Shown piece by piece: positions 20,668 to 61,821 of a DNA stretch of 64,000 nt. Positions within the stretch are counted from its first letter, which is position 1. Each line of letters opens with the position of its first letter. The translations under genes and the position numbers were made by a program. The stretch comes from Amycolatopsis thermoflava N1165 (lineage in GTDB: Bacteria; Actinomycetota; Actinomycetes; Mycobacteriales; Pseudonocardiaceae), in assembly GCF_000473265.1 (NCBI RefSeq), contig NZ_KI421511.1, positions 7,723,314 through 7,787,313 of the forward strand. Direction: 5' to 3'. The notes under the pieces were generated by a model. It made no database searches. It saw only the letters and a list, made by a program, of their open reading frames with translations, and was not told where the DNA came from.

Positions 20668-22062
20668 ATGAACCCGTGGTACCGCCGGCTCGGTCCGGGC
20701 CAGTGGAAGGCGTTCGGCGCAGCGTGGCTCGGCTACCTGCTCGACGGCTTCGACTTCGTGATCATCACGCTGGTGCTCACCGAGCTGCGCGACGAGTTCG
20801 ACCTGTCGCTGGCCACCGCGTCCACGCTGGTGTCGGCCGCCTTCGTGTCCCGCTGGCTGGGCGGGCTCGCGCTGGGCGCGCTCGGCGACCGCTTCGGCCG
20901 CCGCCCGGCGATGATCGCGTCCATCGTGCTCTACGCGGTCGGCACGGCGCTGTGCGGGTTCGCCTGGGACTACTGGTCGTTGTTCATCTTCCGGGTCGTC
21001 GTCGGCCTCGGCATGGCGGGCGAGTACGGCTCCAGCAGCACGTATGTGATGGAGAGCTGGCCGAAGGGCCTGCGCAACCGGGCGACGGGGTGCCTGCTGT
21101 CGGCGTACCCGATCGGCACGGTGCTCGCTGCGCGTGCCTACGACCTGATCGTGCCGAGCTTCGGCTGGCGGTGGCTGTTCTGGCTGGGAATCCTGCCGGT
21201 GTTCGTGGCGCTGTGGCTGCGGCGCACGTTGCCCGAGGCGAAGGACTGGACCGAGGAGGTCGGGTCTGGCGGCGGCTCGACGAGCGCGACGGCGTTGTTG
21301 AACCGGCGGTGGGCGCCGCTCAACATGGTCGTGGCGGTGGTGCTGGCGACCTGCCTGGTGCTGATCTTCTCGGGGCACGCGGGGAGCCTGTATCCGCTGT
21401 ACATCGCGCTGTGCGTGGTGGGGTTCGTGGTGTTCGGGGTGCAGATCAGCGGCCGAGCCTGGCCGGTGGCGGTCGGGTTGATGCTGACCGTGTTCTGCGC
21501 GTTCCTGTACTCGTGGCCGATCCAGTCGCTCCTGCCCACGTACCTGAAGACGGAGCTGCACTACAACGCCGGGCAGGTGGCCAATGCGCTGACCTGGGCC
21601 GGGCTCGGCTATGCGGCCGGTTCGTGCCTGGCCGGGGTGGTCGGCGACCGGTTCGGCACGCGCGCGACGTACGTGGGCGGGCTGCTGCTGTCGCTGGTGT
21701 TCGTGTTCCCGGCGTTCGCGCTCGGCCCGGGCAGCATCGTGCTGGTCTGGTTGCTGCTGTTCGTGTTGCAGGGCACCAGTTCCGGGATATCCGGGCTGCT
21801 GCCGAAGTACATCGGGGACCACTTCCCGACCCGCCTCCGCGCGGCGAGCCTCGGGTTCACCTACAACGTCGGCGCACTCGGCGGCGCGGTCGCCCCGCTG
21901 CTCGGCGCGCAGGTGGCCGGGCACATCGGGCTGGGGCCGGCGCTGGGGTGGCTCGCGGCCGGGCTGACGGTGCTCACGGCGCTGCTGGTCGGTTTCGACG
22001 TGCCTGCGCGGCTCGGGCGGATCGGGCGCAGGGGGCGGCGGGAGGGGGTGGAGGTCGGTTGA
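20668..22062 (+). CDS. MFS sialate/organic-acid permease, NanT-like
   Basis: 464 residues, about 12-14 membrane helices. The N-terminal WYRRLGPGQWKAFGAAWLGY and LLDGFDFVIITLVLTE, the AGEYGSSSTYVMESWPKGLR loop, YSWPIQSLLPTYLKTEL and GFTYNVGALGGAVAPLLGA all closely resemble E. coli NanT (496 residues). No nanA, nanE or nanK is nearby, so the real substrate may be another carboxylate. It is divergent from a FadR-family regulator. Its 3' end borders a large repeat array. Confidence 0.85.
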   Translation: MNPWYRRLGPGQWKAFGAAWLGYLLDGFDFVIITLVLTELRDEFDLSLATASTLVSAAFVSRWLGGLALGALGDRFGRRPAMIASIVLYAVGTALCGFAWDYWSLFIFRVVVGLGMAGEYGSSSTYVMESWPKGLRNRATGCLLSAYPIGTVLAARAYDLIVPSFGWRWLFWLGILPVFVALWLRRTLPEAKDWTEEVGSGGGSTSATALLNRRWAPLNMVVAVVLATCLVLIFSGHAGSLYPLYIALCVVGFVVFGVQISGRAWPVAVGLMLTVFCAFLYSWPIQSLLPTYLKTELHYNAGQVANALTWAGLGYAAGSCLAGVVGDRFGTRATYVGGLLLSLVFVFPAFALGPGSIVLVWLLLFVLQGTSSGISGLLPKYIGDHFPTRLRAASLGFTYNVGALGGAVAPLLGAQVAGHIGLGPALGWLAAGLTVLTALLVGFDVPARLGRIGRRGRREGVEVG

Positions 22063-22112
22063 ATCCGCGGCGGGATTCGGGTGGCCCGCGCGAGGGGGGC
22101 GGTGGTGTGGGG

Positions 22113-22741
22113 GTGAATGGTCGGTTCATGGCTTGGGGCGCGCGAGGTGCCCTGTCGCGTGGCGGTGAATGGTCCGTTCGTGAGTTTGGGCGGCACGAGG
22201 TGTCGTGTGGTGTGGCGGTGAATGGTCCGTTCATGGCTTGGGGCGTGCGAGGTGCCCTGTCGTGTAGCGGTGAATGGTCCGTTCATGAGTTTGGTGGTGC
22301 GAGGTGTCCAGCCACGCGCCGGTGAACGGTCCGGTTCGTGAGCTCGGGCGGCACGAGGTGCCGTGTGGTGTGGCGGTGAATGGTCGGTTCATGGCTTGGG
22401 GCGTGCGAGATGCCCTGTCGTGTAGGGATGAATGGTCCGTTCATGAGTGTGGTGGTGCGACGTGTCCAGCCACGCGCCGGTGAACGGTCCGTTCATGGCT
22501 TGCACGTGGCGACATGGCCAGCCGTGCGGCGATGAATGGTCCGTTCACGGCTTGAGGCTGCGCGAGATGTCCAGTGGTGCGGCGATGAATGGCCCATTCA
22601 TGGCTTCCCTGCCGCGAGATGCCCGACCGTGCCTCGGTGAATGGTCCATTCATACCGGCAACACCTCGGGTCCGCGGAGAAGGGCCCGACCTACCGCGCA
22701 TACGAAACGTCCAGTCACGCGCGGATGAACGGTCCGTTCAT
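22113..22741. repeat. Array 1: 12 copies of a palindromic ~52-bp repeat
   Basis: Twelve copies of a 17-bp near-palindrome (consensus ATGAAYGGWCCRTTCAT) begin at 22113, 22165, 22218, 22270, 22322, 22376, 22428, 22480, 22532, 22585, 22637 and 22725. Spacing is 52-54 bp except the last (88). The 35-36-bp linkers share GCGAGGTGYCC. Units 2-4 are repeated as units 5-7 with a 158-bp period. The array fills the 809-bp gap between the convergent NanT-like and LuxR-type genes. From 22742 to about 22868 the top strand is G-poor and rich in ACC/CCA. No protein gene is supported here; reading frames through it give repeated MNGPFMA peptides and shift frame each unit. Confidence 0.93.
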
Positions 22742-22871: not shown

Positions 22872-25157
22872 TCACGCCTCATTGGCCGTGATCCAAGCAG
22901 CGATCTGGCTGCGTGAAGTGAACCCCAGTTTGGCGAGGATGTGCTCGACGTGCGTTTCGGCCGTCCGCTGGGAAATGACGAGCTGCCCGGCGATCTGCCG
23001 GTTGCTCAGTCCCTTCGCGACCAGCGCGGCGATTTCCGATTCGCGGGCGGTCAGCGGGTTGCGCGAAGGGCTGGCCGGCGCCGCCGACATCCGCCGCTCG
23101 TCCAGGGCGAACGCCACCGCCTTGTCGAACGTCATCGACGCCCCGCGCGCGTACTCCTGCTCGAACACCTGCCGTCCCAGGGCCTCCCGCGCCGGGAGCG
23201 CGGCGTGCGTCTGCGAAACCTGCTGCAGCGCCGGTTCGATCCGCCCGGCGCCGGACAAGCGCCACGCGGTCGCGGCCGCGCCGAGCAGCCGCGCCGCCCG
23301 GTTGAACCGCCGGTCGGACGCCGCGCACCAGGCCAGTGACTCCAGGCTCAGCGCGATCCCGGAATGATCGCCCGCCGGTTCGCGCAGGCGGATCGCGTCG
23401 CGCTGGAGGCGTTCCGCGCGCTGCAGGTCGCCGCGCCGCCACAGCGCCAGCCCCAGCACCCACACCGCCAGGGCGGTGTACCAGGGCGGGTTCCCGTGCG
23501 CCGCGCACAGATCGACCGCCTGCTCCCCGGCCTCCTCGGCGTTCGGCTCGCTGAGCACGAACCGCGCCAGCGCCAGGTACGGCAGGATCTGCAACGCCAG
23601 CCCGTCGTGCCCGGCCGCCCGGCACACCTCGTGCGCCTCCTCCAGCAACTCGCACGCCCGCCGCGGATCGCCCAGGAAGTAGCGGCTCACCCCCTCGCAC
23701 ACGAGCAACTCGACGCTGATCACCGGGTCGTCCAGTTCCGCCGCGATCGACCGGTATTCGCGCAGCCGCCCGGCGAACCCCCGCCGCACCCCCAGCCACG
23801 TGCAGGTGAGCAGCGACGCGTGCAACGCGCGGGCCCGCTCCCGCGACGGGCCGCCGCCGAGTTGGAGCACGCGGTCCAGCCACCGGCTGCCCTCCAGCAG
23901 GTGCCCGCCCGCGATCCAGAACGTCGACAGGTTCCCCGCCATTTCCAGCGCCGGCCGCGGATCCGGCTCCTCCAGCCACGACTCCAGCGCCGCGCGCAGG
24001 TTCGCGTGCTCGCTCTGCATGCGGGAGATCCACTCCTGCTGCCGCGAGGTGATCTTCTCCTCGGTGAACCGGCGGGCCAGCTCCCGGTAGAAATCGCGGT
24101 GCCGCCGCGTGGAACCGGCCGGATCACCGTTCTCGGCGAGCCGCGCCGCGCCGAACTCGGCGAGCGTTTCCAGCATCCGGTAGCGCGCGTTGTGCCCGTA
24201 GGTCTCCCGCACCCGCACCAGAACCGATTTGTCGACCAGTCCGGCGAGCAGTCCGAGGACCGAATCGCCGCCGATCTCGTCGCCCGCGCACACGAACTCG
24301 GCCGCGGGCAGGTCGAACCCGCCGCGGAACACCGACAGCCGCTCCCACGCCCGCTGCTCGGCGGGCAGGCACAGCCGGTAGCTCCAGTCGACGAGCGCCT
24401 CCAGGCCCTGCTGGCGCGGCGGCGCCGTGCGGGAGGCCTCGCTCAGCAGCGCGAACCGGTCGGCCAGGCGGTCGTTCAACTCGGTCAGCGACAGCGTGCG
24501 CAACCACACCGCGGCCAGCTCGATGGCCAGCGGCAGCCCCTCGACGTGCCGGCAGATCATCGCGATCAGCGCCTCGTTCTCGGCGGTGAGCGCGAAGCCC
24601 GGCGACACGGCGGCGGCGCGGTCGGCGAACAGCGCCATCGCGTCCCAGCCGCTGGTGCCCTCGGTCGTGCCGCTGTGGTCGGGCAGGCTCAGCGGTTCCA
24701 CCGGCAGCAGGTGCTCGCCCTCGACCGAGAGCCGCTGACGGCTGGTCGCCAGGATGCGCAGCCCGCTGGTCGCCGCGAGCAGCTTGCCGATCAGCGTCGC
24801 GCACGCGTCGGTCAGGTGCTCGCAGTTGTCCAGCACCAGCAGCACCTGGCGGTCGCCGAGGAACTGGGCGAGCCGGTCCGCGGGCTCGACGGCCTCGTCC
24901 CGCAGGCCGAGCGCGGTGGCGACGGTCTGCGGCAGCAACGCCGGGTCGTCCAGGTCCGCGAGTTCGGCGAGGTGCACCCCGTCCGGGAACGCGCGTTTCA
25001 ATCCGACCGCGGCCCGCACCGCGAGCCTGGTCTTGCCGACCCCGCCGAGTCCCGTCAGCGTCACCAGGCGCGCGGCCGACAGCAGCCGCCGGATGTCCGC
25101 GAGCTCCTGCCGCCGGCCGACGAAACTGGTGAGCTCGCTCGGAAGGGTGCCCGCCAC
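22872..25157 (-). CDS. LuxR-family regulator with AAA/NB-ARC-like ATPase domain
   Basis: 761 residues from GTG 25157. The N-terminal ATPase has Walker A GLGGVGKTRL (about 36-45) and Walker B LLVLDNCEHL (about 104-113), followed by an AfsR-like arrangement with LPLAIELAAVWLR. The middle region (about 330-670) is helical and TPR-like. The C-terminal LuxR HTH reads LTARESEIAALVAKGLSNRQ and then RTAETHVEHILAKLGF. Such proteins are ATP-gated transcription activators. It is divergent from the WYL regulator across about 100 bp. Its 3' end faces repeat array 1. The effector is unknown. Confidence 0.9.
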   Translation of the reverse strand: MAGTLPSELTSFVGRRQELADIRRLLSAARLVTLTGLGGVGKTRLAVRAAVGLKRAFPDGVHLAELADLDDPALLPQTVATALGLRDEAVEPADRLAQFLGDRQVLLVLDNCEHLTDACATLIGKLLAATSGLRILATSRQRLSVEGEHLLPVEPLSLPDHSGTTEGTSGWDAMALFADRAAAVSPGFALTAENEALIAMICRHVEGLPLAIELAAVWLRTLSLTELNDRLADRFALLSEASRTAPPRQQGLEALVDWSYRLCLPAEQRAWERLSVFRGGFDLPAAEFVCAGDEIGGDSVLGLLAGLVDKSVLVRVRETYGHNARYRMLETLAEFGAARLAENGDPAGSTRRHRDFYRELARRFTEEKITSRQQEWISRMQSEHANLRAALESWLEEPDPRPALEMAGNLSTFWIAGGHLLEGSRWLDRVLQLGGGPSRERARALHASLLTCTWLGVRRGFAGRLREYRSIAAELDDPVISVELLVCEGVSRYFLGDPRRACELLEEAHEVCRAAGHDGLALQILPYLALARFVLSEPNAEEAGEQAVDLCAAHGNPPWYTALAVWVLGLALWRRGDLQRAERLQRDAIRLREPAGDHSGIALSLESLAWCAASDRRFNRAARLLGAAATAWRLSGAGRIEPALQQVSQTHAALPAREALGRQVFEQEYARGASMTFDKAVAFALDERRMSAAPASPSRNPLTARESEIAALVAKGLSNRQIAGQLVISQRTAETHVEHILAKLGFTSRSQIAAWITANEA

Positions 25158-45102: not shown

Positions 45103-45594
45103 GTGAGCACCCGTGGCGTGGTTTACGTCCACTCGTCGCCGTCTGCGGTGTGCCCGCACGTCGAGTGGGCGATTTCGGGCACCCTGGGTACCCGAGTGGA
45201 TCTGAAGTGGACGGCGCAACCCGCCGCTCCAGGGCAGCTTCGCGCCGAGTGCACGTGGAGCGCGCCCGCCGGAACCGGCGCCAAGCTGGCGGCCGGTCTC
45301 AAGGCGTGGCCGATGCTGCGCTTCGAGGTGACCGAGGAGCCGAGCGCCGGCGTCGACGGCGAGCGGTTCTGCTACGTGCCCGGGCTGGGACTGTGGCGCG
45401 GCCGGACGAGCGCCAACGGAGACATCGTCGTCGGGGAAGACCAGCTGCGCACACTCGTGGCGACCTGCCGCGCGGGGGAGCAGCTGGCGCACAAACTCGA
45501 TGAGCTGCTCGCTTCGAGCTGGGATGAGGCGCTGGAGCCGTTCCGGCACGCCGGGGACGGGGCTCCGGTCACCTGGCTGCACCGGGTGGGGTGA
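45103..45594 (+). CDS. DUF3145 family protein
   Basis: 163 residues from GTG 45103 with GCGGAGG upstream. It begins MSTRGVVYVHSSPSAVCPHV and includes VEWAISGTLGTRVDLKWTAQ, the conserved start of this actinobacteria-specific family. Function is unknown. The sequence after it contains a heptamer tandem repeat and repeat array 2. Confidence 0.9.
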   Translation: MSTRGVVYVHSSPSAVCPHVEWAISGTLGTRVDLKWTAQPAAPGQLRAECTWSAPAGTGAKLAAGLKAWPMLRFEVTEEPSAGVDGERFCYVPGLGLWRGRTSANGDIVVGEDQLRTLVATCRAGEQLAHKLDELLASSWDEALEPFRHAGDGAPVTWLHRVG

Positions 45595-45650
45595 GTTTTC
45601 AGGCGAGCCGGTTGGGCGGCTGTGCTTGGCTTCGGTGCTTGGCTTCGGTG

Positions 45651-45699
45651 CTCGGTGCTCGGTGCTCGGTGCTCGGTGCTCGGTGCTCGGTGCTCGGTG
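45651..45699. repeat. Heptanucleotide tandem repeat (CTCGGTG)x7
   Basis: Seven perfect CTCGGTG copies, preceded by two degenerate CTTCGGTG-type copies from about 45621 and followed by one more after TGGGGG. It probably changes copy number by slippage. It lies 57 bp after the DUF3145 stop and leads into array 2. Confidence 0.95.
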
Positions 45700-45733
45700 C
45701 TGGGGGCTCGGTGAGGTGCCCACTCATGTGGCG

Positions 45734-46171
45734 ATGAATGGACCGTTCATGCCTTGAAGCTGCGTGAGGTGCCCAGTCGTGCGGTGATGAACGGTCCGTT
45801 CATGACTTCAGCCCGCGCGAGGTGCACACTCCTGTGGCGATGAACGGACCATTCAGTGCTTCCCCCGGCGAGGTGTCCGCTCGCGCGCCGACGAGTGGCC
45901 GTTCATGGCTTTCAGTCCGCGTGAGGTGTCCGGTCGCGCGGCGATGAACGGACCGTTCATGCCTTGCGCCGCGCGAGGTGTCCGGTCGCGCGGCGATGAA
46001 TGGTCCGTTCATGGCTTGCGCCGCGCGAGGTGTCCGGTCGCGCGGCGATGAATGGTCCGTTCATGGCTTCCGTCCGCGTGAGGTGTCCAGTTGCGCGGCG
46101 ATGAATGGTCCGTTCATGGCTTTCAGTCCGCGTGAGGTGTCCGGTCGCGCGGCGATGAACGGACCATTCAT
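45734..46171. repeat. Array 2: 9 copies of the palindromic ~52-bp repeat
   Basis: Copies of the same 17-bp palindrome as array 1 begin at 45734, 45787, 45840, 45891, 45944, 45996, 46048, 46101 and 46155; spacing 51-54 bp. The fourth is degenerate. Linkers contain GYGAGGTGTCCGGTCGCGCG. Both arrays run in the same orientation. A G-poor, C/A-rich tract follows (46172 to about 46310), as in array 1. The gap 45595-46338 contains no supported gene. Confidence 0.93.
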
Positions 46172-46338: not shown

Positions 46339-46932
46339 GTGACAGCCATGTCGGCGCCTCCCGCAGCACCGCCGCGATGGTTGGTGCCCGTCGTCATCGT
46401 CGTGGTGTCGATCATGGTCGGCGGCGGTCTCCTGGCCCGCGAGTTGTACCGCCTGCCCGAAGCGACGCCGGACGCTATCCTCGCCCAGTCGTCGACCGCC
46501 CGGCCGCTCGCGCAGCAGCCTGGGCCGGGCACCGTCGAGCTCACCCCGGACGCCGCGGCGCACCCGCAGAACACCACGGTCCGCACGCTGCTCCAGACGT
46601 ACTTCGACTCGATCAACAACCGCGACTACGAGCTGTGGAAATCGGCCGTCACCCGCGAGCGCGTCCAGGCCAAGTCGAAGAGCACCTGGCTCAACGACTA
46701 CCGCACGACGCGGGACGGCAGCATCCTCGTCTACCGCATCGACCCGGTCGCCGACGACGAGCTCCGCGCCCTCGTCGGCTTCACCAGCACGCAGGACGTC
46801 AAGGACGCCCCGGCCGAACTCCCGGAACCCTGCGTGCACTGGCGCCTCGTGCTCCCGCTGACCCTGGAATCCGGCGCCTGGAAGGTGGACACCGTCACCG
46901 GCTCCACCACCCCCGAACTGTCCCGCTGCTGA
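46339..46932 (+). CDS. Membrane-anchored protein with NTF2-like outer domain, unknown function
   Basis: 197 residues from GTG 46339 (ATG 46348 possible). One N-terminal membrane helix (WLVPVVIVVVSIMVGGGLLA) is followed by an outer domain. VRTLLQTYFDSINNRDYELW is typical of NTF2/SnoaL-like folds that sit outside the actinobacterial membrane, and ACV-type Cys near the end (EPCVHW, SRC) may pair. No partner gene is recognised. Confidence 0.7.
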   Translation: MTAMSAPPAAPPRWLVPVVIVVVSIMVGGGLLARELYRLPEATPDAILAQSSTARPLAQQPGPGTVELTPDAAAHPQNTTVRTLLQTYFDSINNRDYELWKSAVTRERVQAKSKSTWLNDYRTTRDGSILVYRIDPVADDELRALVGFTSTQDVKDAPAELPEPCVHWRLVLPLTLESGAWKVDTVTGSTTPELSRC

Positions 46933-54536: not shown

Positions 54537-54600
54537 TCGGTTGCCGAGACACCGCGTCAAGGCGGGAAAGCGTGCCTTGACCCGGTGGCTCGGCAACCGA
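54537..54600. repeat. Dispersed hairpin element, copy 1
   Basis: Outer arms TCGGTTGCCGAG and CTCGGCAACCGA (12-bp perfect), inner arms GTCAAGGC and GCCTTGAC, loop GGGAAAGCGT. The same 26-bp core occurs inverted at 61614-61639. The gap 54339-54705 otherwise shows no gene; it has further short inverted repeats around ATCGAGA at 54438-54505. Confidence 0.9.
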
Positions 54601-61477: not shown

Positions 61478-61541
61478 ACGCAAGCCGGCAACGCAAGTAA
61501 GCCGACTACCCCAACCAGCGACACGCAAGCCGGCAACGCAA
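61478..61541. repeat. Two 19-bp direct repeats
   Basis: ACGCAAGCCGGCAACGCAA occurs perfectly at 61478-61496 and 61523-61541, 45 bp apart, in the gap after the methyltransferase gene. Confidence 0.85.
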
Positions 61542-61597
61542 CGACACCGACCATTCCAACCAGACCTCCCCCGCCCCCGATCCACAGCCGATCTTTA

Positions 61598-61655
61598 GTC
61601 GCCGACCAGGCGTGTCAAGGCACGCTTTCCCGCCTTGACACGGCTGCTCGGCGAC
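61598..61655. repeat. Dispersed hairpin element, copy 2 (inverted)
   Basis: Core GTCAAGGC, ACGCTTTCCC, GCCTTGAC (61614-61639) is the exact reverse complement of the copy-1 core at 54556-54581. Outer arms are GTCGCCGA and TCGGCGAC: they differ from copy 1 yet stay complementary. Confidence 0.9.
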
Positions 61656-61821
61656 TGAAACACAATCAGGCATCGGGGGCGGGGGTGGTCGTAAGGTGAC
61701 CGTTTGGCGCCGCAAGGCGCACCGCCCGCAGGGCGGAAAAAGATCAAAAGAGTCCTCGCCGGACGGGCAGGCTCCGGGATGACAGAAAAGCACTTCACCT
61801 CACCTTGGCGAGGTGGTCGCC

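Follow-up and report, generated by a model that had tools for sequence, protein, structure and literature searches.

Amycolatopsis thermoflava N1165 carries, between its predicted genes, tandem arrays of a short dyad, which we read, with a confidence slightly better than even, as operator-like candidate sites for one sequence-specific dimeric DNA-binding protein. The kept dyad core, the absence of consistent pairing between its arms, and the helical phase of the copies fit a dimeric protein on one face of the DNA better than a hairpin. Two of the arrays lie in the window, that is, the whole stretch of 64,000 nucleotides that was analysed. These arrays, their parts, and the neighbouring genes are as follows.

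20668..22062, + strand: MFS transporter gene, sialate:H+ symport type (NCBIfam), ending 50 bp before array 1
22113..22741, no strand: array 1, 12 dyads TGAAYGGNCCRTTCA, one with a 1-bp insertion
22130..22164, no strand: first array 1 linker, 35 bp, including GCGCGAGGTGCCCTGTCGCG
22322..22339, no strand: decayed array 1 copy, 1-bp insertion, right half-site
22872..25157, − strand: regulator gene with NB-ARC/AAA, TPR, and LuxR-type (GerE) domains, convergent, ending 130 bp after array 1
45313..45594, + strand: DUF3145 gene, 3' part, upstream of array 2
45734..46171, no strand: array 2, sister of array 1, 9 unit positions at a spacing of 52-54 bp
46381..46932, + strand: small predicted gene downstream of array 2, with an Rv0361 C-terminal domain match below the curated cut-off

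Dyad arrays in the window

The dyad measures 15 to 17 bp, has TGAAYGGNCCRTTCA as its best form, and contains N5 between GAAC and GTTC. The actinobacterial SOS box, which is bound by LexA, is GAAC-N4-GTTC. Copies in array 1 start at 22113, 22165, 22218, 22270, 22322, 22376, 22428, 22480, 22532, 22585, 22637, and 22725, and the spacings between them are 52, 53, 52, 52, 54, 52, 52, 52, 53, 52, and 88 bp. The first-pass annotation of this DNA had described twelve palindromes here, spaced 52 to 54 bp apart. All twelve were recovered, 11 with at most one mismatch to TGAAYGGNCCRTTCA and one with the insertion; the spacing applied to 10 of the 11 gaps, the final gap of 88 bp being the exception. The 17-mer that had been given for the palindrome, ATG..CAT around a central W, proved slightly over-strict: the base 5' of the 15-mer is G in 8 of the 12 copies and A in 4, and the centre is T in 11 copies and C in 1. 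Array 2 consists of 8 exact dyads and a decayed one at about 45892. At up to 2 mismatches, the window contains 19 matches, split 11 and 8 between arrays 1 and 2; chance predicts 0.45, and 100 shuffles gave at most 3. The linkers are alike between arrays 1 and 2 and differ from those at other loci.

Several further features of the window were recorded. A 141-aa ORF on the − strand (21861-22286), in which NGPF occurs twice, crosses the first part of array 1 and could be annotated as a spurious protein. Tandem repeats of 13 bp and 7 bp (TCGGTGC, about 10 copies) at 45622-45713 directly adjoin array 2. The intergenic hairpins at 54537-54600 and 61597-61656 both carry an exact TCAAGGCACGCTTTCCCGCCTTGA in opposite orientations, possibly representing a second dispersed element, and no exact match to TCAAGGCACGCTTTCCCGCCTTGA was found among 241 fetched loci. 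A 45-bp direct repeat (1.9 copies) occupies 61478-61563. An Rfam scan of the window at the gathering threshold returned one tRNA.

Conservation of the dyad and its linkers

Pairwise comparison of 10 array 1 units gave mean differences of 0.34 for the linkers, 0.123 for the 17-bp palindrome, and 0.059 for its 12 fixed core columns, in agreement with the earlier observation that the linkers are the more divergent part. The fixed core columns also differed less (0.00-0.15) than the linkers (0.15-0.53) in 11 of 11 regular arrays, which were picked by hand, and palindrome columns were less different than linker columns in 7 of 7 ortholog comparisons; the copies behind these counts were gathered by dyad similarity with orthologs included, which makes them non-independent and biases them toward palindrome conservation. 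Both sets of comparisons uphold the proposal that the palindrome is the part that is kept. A palindrome decaying faster than its linkers, which had been named as an outcome that would contradict the proposal, was seen in none of the seven ortholog comparisons. In the same comparisons, the palindrome and linker columns both differed more than the flanks, and this higher divergence probably means that the units are not strictly orthologous.

Distribution and turnover of the arrays

The 8.69-Mb genome of A. thermoflava N1165 contains 45 exact dyads, all inside seven loci, and no exact match to a reversed pattern used as the control. At up to one mismatch, there were 73 copies, 64 of which lie within the seven loci, and one match to the reversed pattern. 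The seven loci comprise arrays 1 and 2 and five arrays elsewhere, all between predicted genes; the gene context was convergent at 3, tandem at 4, and divergent at 0, according to orientations predicted by our own GC-based gene finder instead of the annotation. If the parS-like sites at 5.869 Mb are taken as the origin, 6 of the 7 arrays fall on one side of it, and all are within about 2.6 Mb.

Spacing is specific to the locus. It is 52-54 bp in arrays 1 and 2 and, at the other loci of this genome, alternating 46/50, 46-50, about 74, about 85, and 93 bp; across loci and species, we found 23, 31, 42, 46/50, 52, 74, 84, and 95 bp. The view that 52 bp is a special constant length was therefore abandoned. 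An exact match was detected in 14 of the 19 genomes of the window genus, with eight genomes holding at least 11 and five holding none. In the family, 115 of 297 genomes had an exact match, compared with 4 of 297 for the reversed pattern.

Congeners carry arrays at corresponding sites with differing copy number. The array 1 site has 12 copies here and 3 in genome G009. The same two flanking genes were found in G000 and G009 with dyads between them and in G008 and G018 with a 38-bp gap and no dyad; for this comparison, G017 stops at a contig end, and the remaining genomes have another neighbour. Two relatives with both flanking genes lack array 1, which is therefore not essential to the genus. 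Arrays grow and shrink fast between close species, as copy number varies where the flanks are about 89-97% identical.

This variation in copy number, the presence or absence of dyads at the array 1 site, and the linkers that differ by locus would also suit a neutral or selfish minisatellite, produced by slippage or unequal recombination and without function, whose dyad is a recombination or replication hot spot. We consider such an origin unlikely, as the dyad core is retained in arrays whose linkers diverge by as much as 53% (locus L109), the dyad spans genera, and the distances between copies are phased at 10.5 bp, as described below.

Helical phasing of the dyads

The phasing set was built from 54 loci, of which 45 contained arrays with 3 or more copies (at most 2 mismatches, gaps up to 130 bp) and 9 were dropped; duplicate records of genomes already used (5 loci) were excluded. 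Grouping by flanking homology gave 24 ortholog-collapsed locus groups from two genera. The loci represent part of all arrays, with 4 loci from genome G016, 8 from G250, and none from G017. The locus-weighted spectrum of adjacent spacings over the 24 groups peaked at 10.5 bp (R 0.43, phase +0.4 bp), with p = 1e-4 for random locus offsets and p = 0.001 when maximised over periods 8-14. With every pair of copies lying up to 250 bp apart in an array taken into account, the mean cosine was 0.326 at 10.5 bp and was positive in 19 of the 24 groups, compared with 0.04 at 10.3 bp and −0.04 at 10.8 bp. The null had a mean of −0.010 and an sd of 0.055, and the observed value was reached by 0 of 3000 randomisations and by 0 of 600 when maximised over periods. 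By genus, the mean cosine was 0.371 in the 16 groups of the window genus and 0.235 in the 8 groups of a second genus, g22.

Arrays with similar linkers at different loci, such as arrays 1 and 2, are non-independent within the 24 groups, and this is addressed by a collapsed set of 14 arrays, which contains one array per genus and spacing class, with arrays of modal spacing 52 removed. In this set, the mean cosine was 0.261 (p = 0.0002), and a second, lower value of 0.196 appeared at 12 bp. The 15 distinct spacing classes alone gave a phasing p of 0.014.

The suggestion of the first-pass annotation that the palindromes face the same side of the helix thus holds over the 24 locus groups and over many different spacings, the best period being 10.5 bp. 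As in an operator array, the dyads lie on one helix face, with exceptions at 23 and 46 bp, two frequent spacings that do not fit the 10.5-bp grid. Copies at random spacing in other genomes had been listed as a finding that would count against the arrays; the spacings do vary between genomes, yet they are quantised, except for these two values. These results indicate that helical phase, not length, is what is kept.

DNA site or RNA hairpin

The main rival explanation is that the dyads are transcription terminators, namely RNA hairpins at gene ends that were multiplied in tandem. We regard it as rather unlikely, and the evidence on arm pairing, folding, and gene context is given here for both sides. 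Arm pairing was assessed at the only two palindrome pairs unbiased by the search pattern, the inner variable pair and the outermost pair. Over 395 copies, the inner pair showed no co-variation, being Watson-Crick in 207 against 221 ± 6 expected from shuffles within arrays, i.e. in fewer, which disfavours a terminator; the outermost pair was Watson-Crick in 231 against the same expectation of 221 ± 6, a borderline co-variation (5% of shuffles reach 231) that favours one. On the sense strand in tandem-gene contexts, C.A was as frequent as U.G (22 each; by array, 6 and 5, respectively), which likewise disfavours a terminator. Paired changes in the two arms had been reported for array 1 at first; instead, 7 of 11 copies have an unpaired T..G at the variable pair, where the 395 copies are likewise without excess pairing. 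Arm pairing is not consistently kept.

Folding as RNA gave support to both sides. For array 1, a 146-nt piece outperformed its shuffles as the + strand (z −4.4) and matched them as the − strand (z −0.5); for array 2, a 147-nt piece outperformed shuffles as either strand (z −4.2 and −5.7).

Terminators are also suggested by the form that the dyad takes in A. coloradensis (genome G169, which contains a 4201-bp query from L071 at 100%), where it is doubled to about 55 bp and folds to one hairpin of about 25 bp; the two elements that were folded gave z −10 to −13 on both strands. In that species, 26 element clusters were examined and 23 were placed (2 are inside predicted ORFs and 1 is at an edge), and 19 of the 23 lie between convergent genes, compared with 23 of 111 gaps (p = 4e-10). 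The distance to the stop codon was 7-21 bp in 31 of 42 cases. At the same two convergent junctions in A. coloradensis and four relatives (L222-L226), each species was seen by eye to have a long hairpin with its own sequence, a pattern that would fit replacement of terminator hairpins in one species after another. Long complementary arms were likewise seen by eye at the site behind the PTS EIIA gene in genus g22.

The arrays themselves are only weakly enriched at convergent locations (8 of 23; p = 0.02 by gap count and 0.12 by gap length), and helical phasing is unexpected for terminators. Moreover, a 16-copy array in genome G250 (L148, 4770-5570) lies between an ftsW-type and a murG-type gene of the same orientation, a place where strong termination would presumably be costly; the names ftsW and murG, like recQ and EIIA, are based on family matches. 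On balance, the evidence favours a DNA-binding dyad over an RNA hairpin. With arms that lack consistent co-variation and wobble pairs that lack a strand preference, the arrays behave more like the site for a dyad-binding protein that was originally proposed. The dyad may have different functions from species to species, or terminators may be the ancestors of the arrays.

Single sites and candidate regulators

In genera g22 and g8, single dyads occupy corresponding places (loci L164, L166, L167, and L089-L101), either upstream of a gene with a WYL domain or behind PTS EIIA; the WYL and EIIA families were tested on one gene each. A dyad upstream of recQ is exact in just 1 of the 19 genomes of the window genus and degenerate in five, and it was not found in the array-rich genomes of that genus. 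Because the recQ site is rare and was not detected in the array-rich genomes, a conserved regulon deduced from single sites was rejected, and no regulator is named here. In L116, a WYL gene (identified with Pfam) has an array upstream of it, and similar genes were seen by eye in L002 and L120, making a WYL regulator a weak lead as the candidate cognate protein. Regulator genes were noticed beside some of the arrays, an observation that forms no part of our argument.

Searches of mobile DNA were negative: blastn with the low-complexity filter on gave no match for array 1 in phage records and none for array 2 in plasmid records, and viral contigs contained no exact dyad pair with 8-38 bp between the dyads.

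Proposed role of the arrays

The most likely role of the arrays, which we propose with low confidence, is that of a local nucleoprotein patch at gene ends. A dimer would bind each dyad, and dimers on the same face would touch each other or bridge DNA, forming a cooperative patch that would usually be located at gene ends. The patch might act by organising the chromosome locally, by stopping polymerases, or by titrating the protein. New copies would most likely arise via unequal recombination or slippage between units, with selection retaining those that are in phase. The occurrence of one dyad at many spacings makes length and sequence separable. In addition, the dyad makes a specific protein findable, and half-turn changes in spacing would assay binding on the same face.

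Comparison with known systems

CRISPR was ruled out, as the linkers within one array are recognisable copies of each other and not unrelated spacers. ParB binds parS, a TGTTTCACGTGAAACA-type sequence near the origin. ParB parS sites were also ruled out, as the dyad differs in sequence and the arrays are away from the parS-like sites.

Bidirectional hairpin terminators share with the A. coloradensis form of the dyad its position at convergent gene ends; the arrays of the window differ from them in having no consistent arm pairing, and convergent enrichment is weak. REP/BIME elements are likewise extragenic palindromes that are often grouped, and the intergenic palindromes described here and the dispersed pairs in A. 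coloradensis would be compatible with elements spread by a RAYT (Y1) transposase. This explanation is, however, very improbable: Y1_Tnp (PF01797), sought in 24 genomes, was detected in 3 of the 12 copy-poor ones and in none of the 12 copy-rich ones, and exact copies are confined to the seven loci in this genome.

In the literature searched, no paper contained the dyad motif strings, and none was found on the topic of such arrays. In the portion of PMC6749651 available to us, A. mediterranei appears a single time, in the row of a table, with 23 satellites. The closest published kind, judging from the accessible part of the source, is the 52-nt tandem repeats of Bacillus and other Firmicutes (Subirana & Messeguer 2021, PMC8161180). 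As presented in that part, these repeats have 52-nt units, mostly 4-10 per array, occur at many non-coding loci per genome with partial conservation between strains, and are stated to be restricted to Firmicutes and species-specific in sequence. The authors propose a protein that polymerises on DNA to explain them, and they describe bacterial satellites of constant length, leaving the length without explanation. Among the Bacillus consensus units printed there, we found an inverted repeat above mononucleotide shuffles (p ≤ 0.05) in 14 of 27.

So far as that part of the paper describes them, the Bacillus repeats resemble the present arrays in that short conserved signals are embedded in variable units (here, core 0.00-0.15 and linker 0.15-0.53 in 11 arrays) and in that they are non-coding and present at several loci (here, seven loci between predicted genes). 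They differ in several respects. A constant length of 51-53 nt describes arrays 1 and 2, apart from the 88-bp gap, but not the other arrays, and the host here is an actinobacterium, outside the Firmicutes to which the repeats are said to be confined. In the 14 Bacillus units, 5-28 nt separate the arms of the inverted repeat, compared with 1 nt here. Furthermore, one dyad is common to loci, species, and genera in the present case, and length is largely quantised in helical turns. By a tentative and rather doubtful extension of our reading, the Firmicute 52-nt repeats and such satellites would also be scaffolds, encoded in the sequence, for an oligomeric protein on one helix face, with a length that drifts mostly by helical turns.
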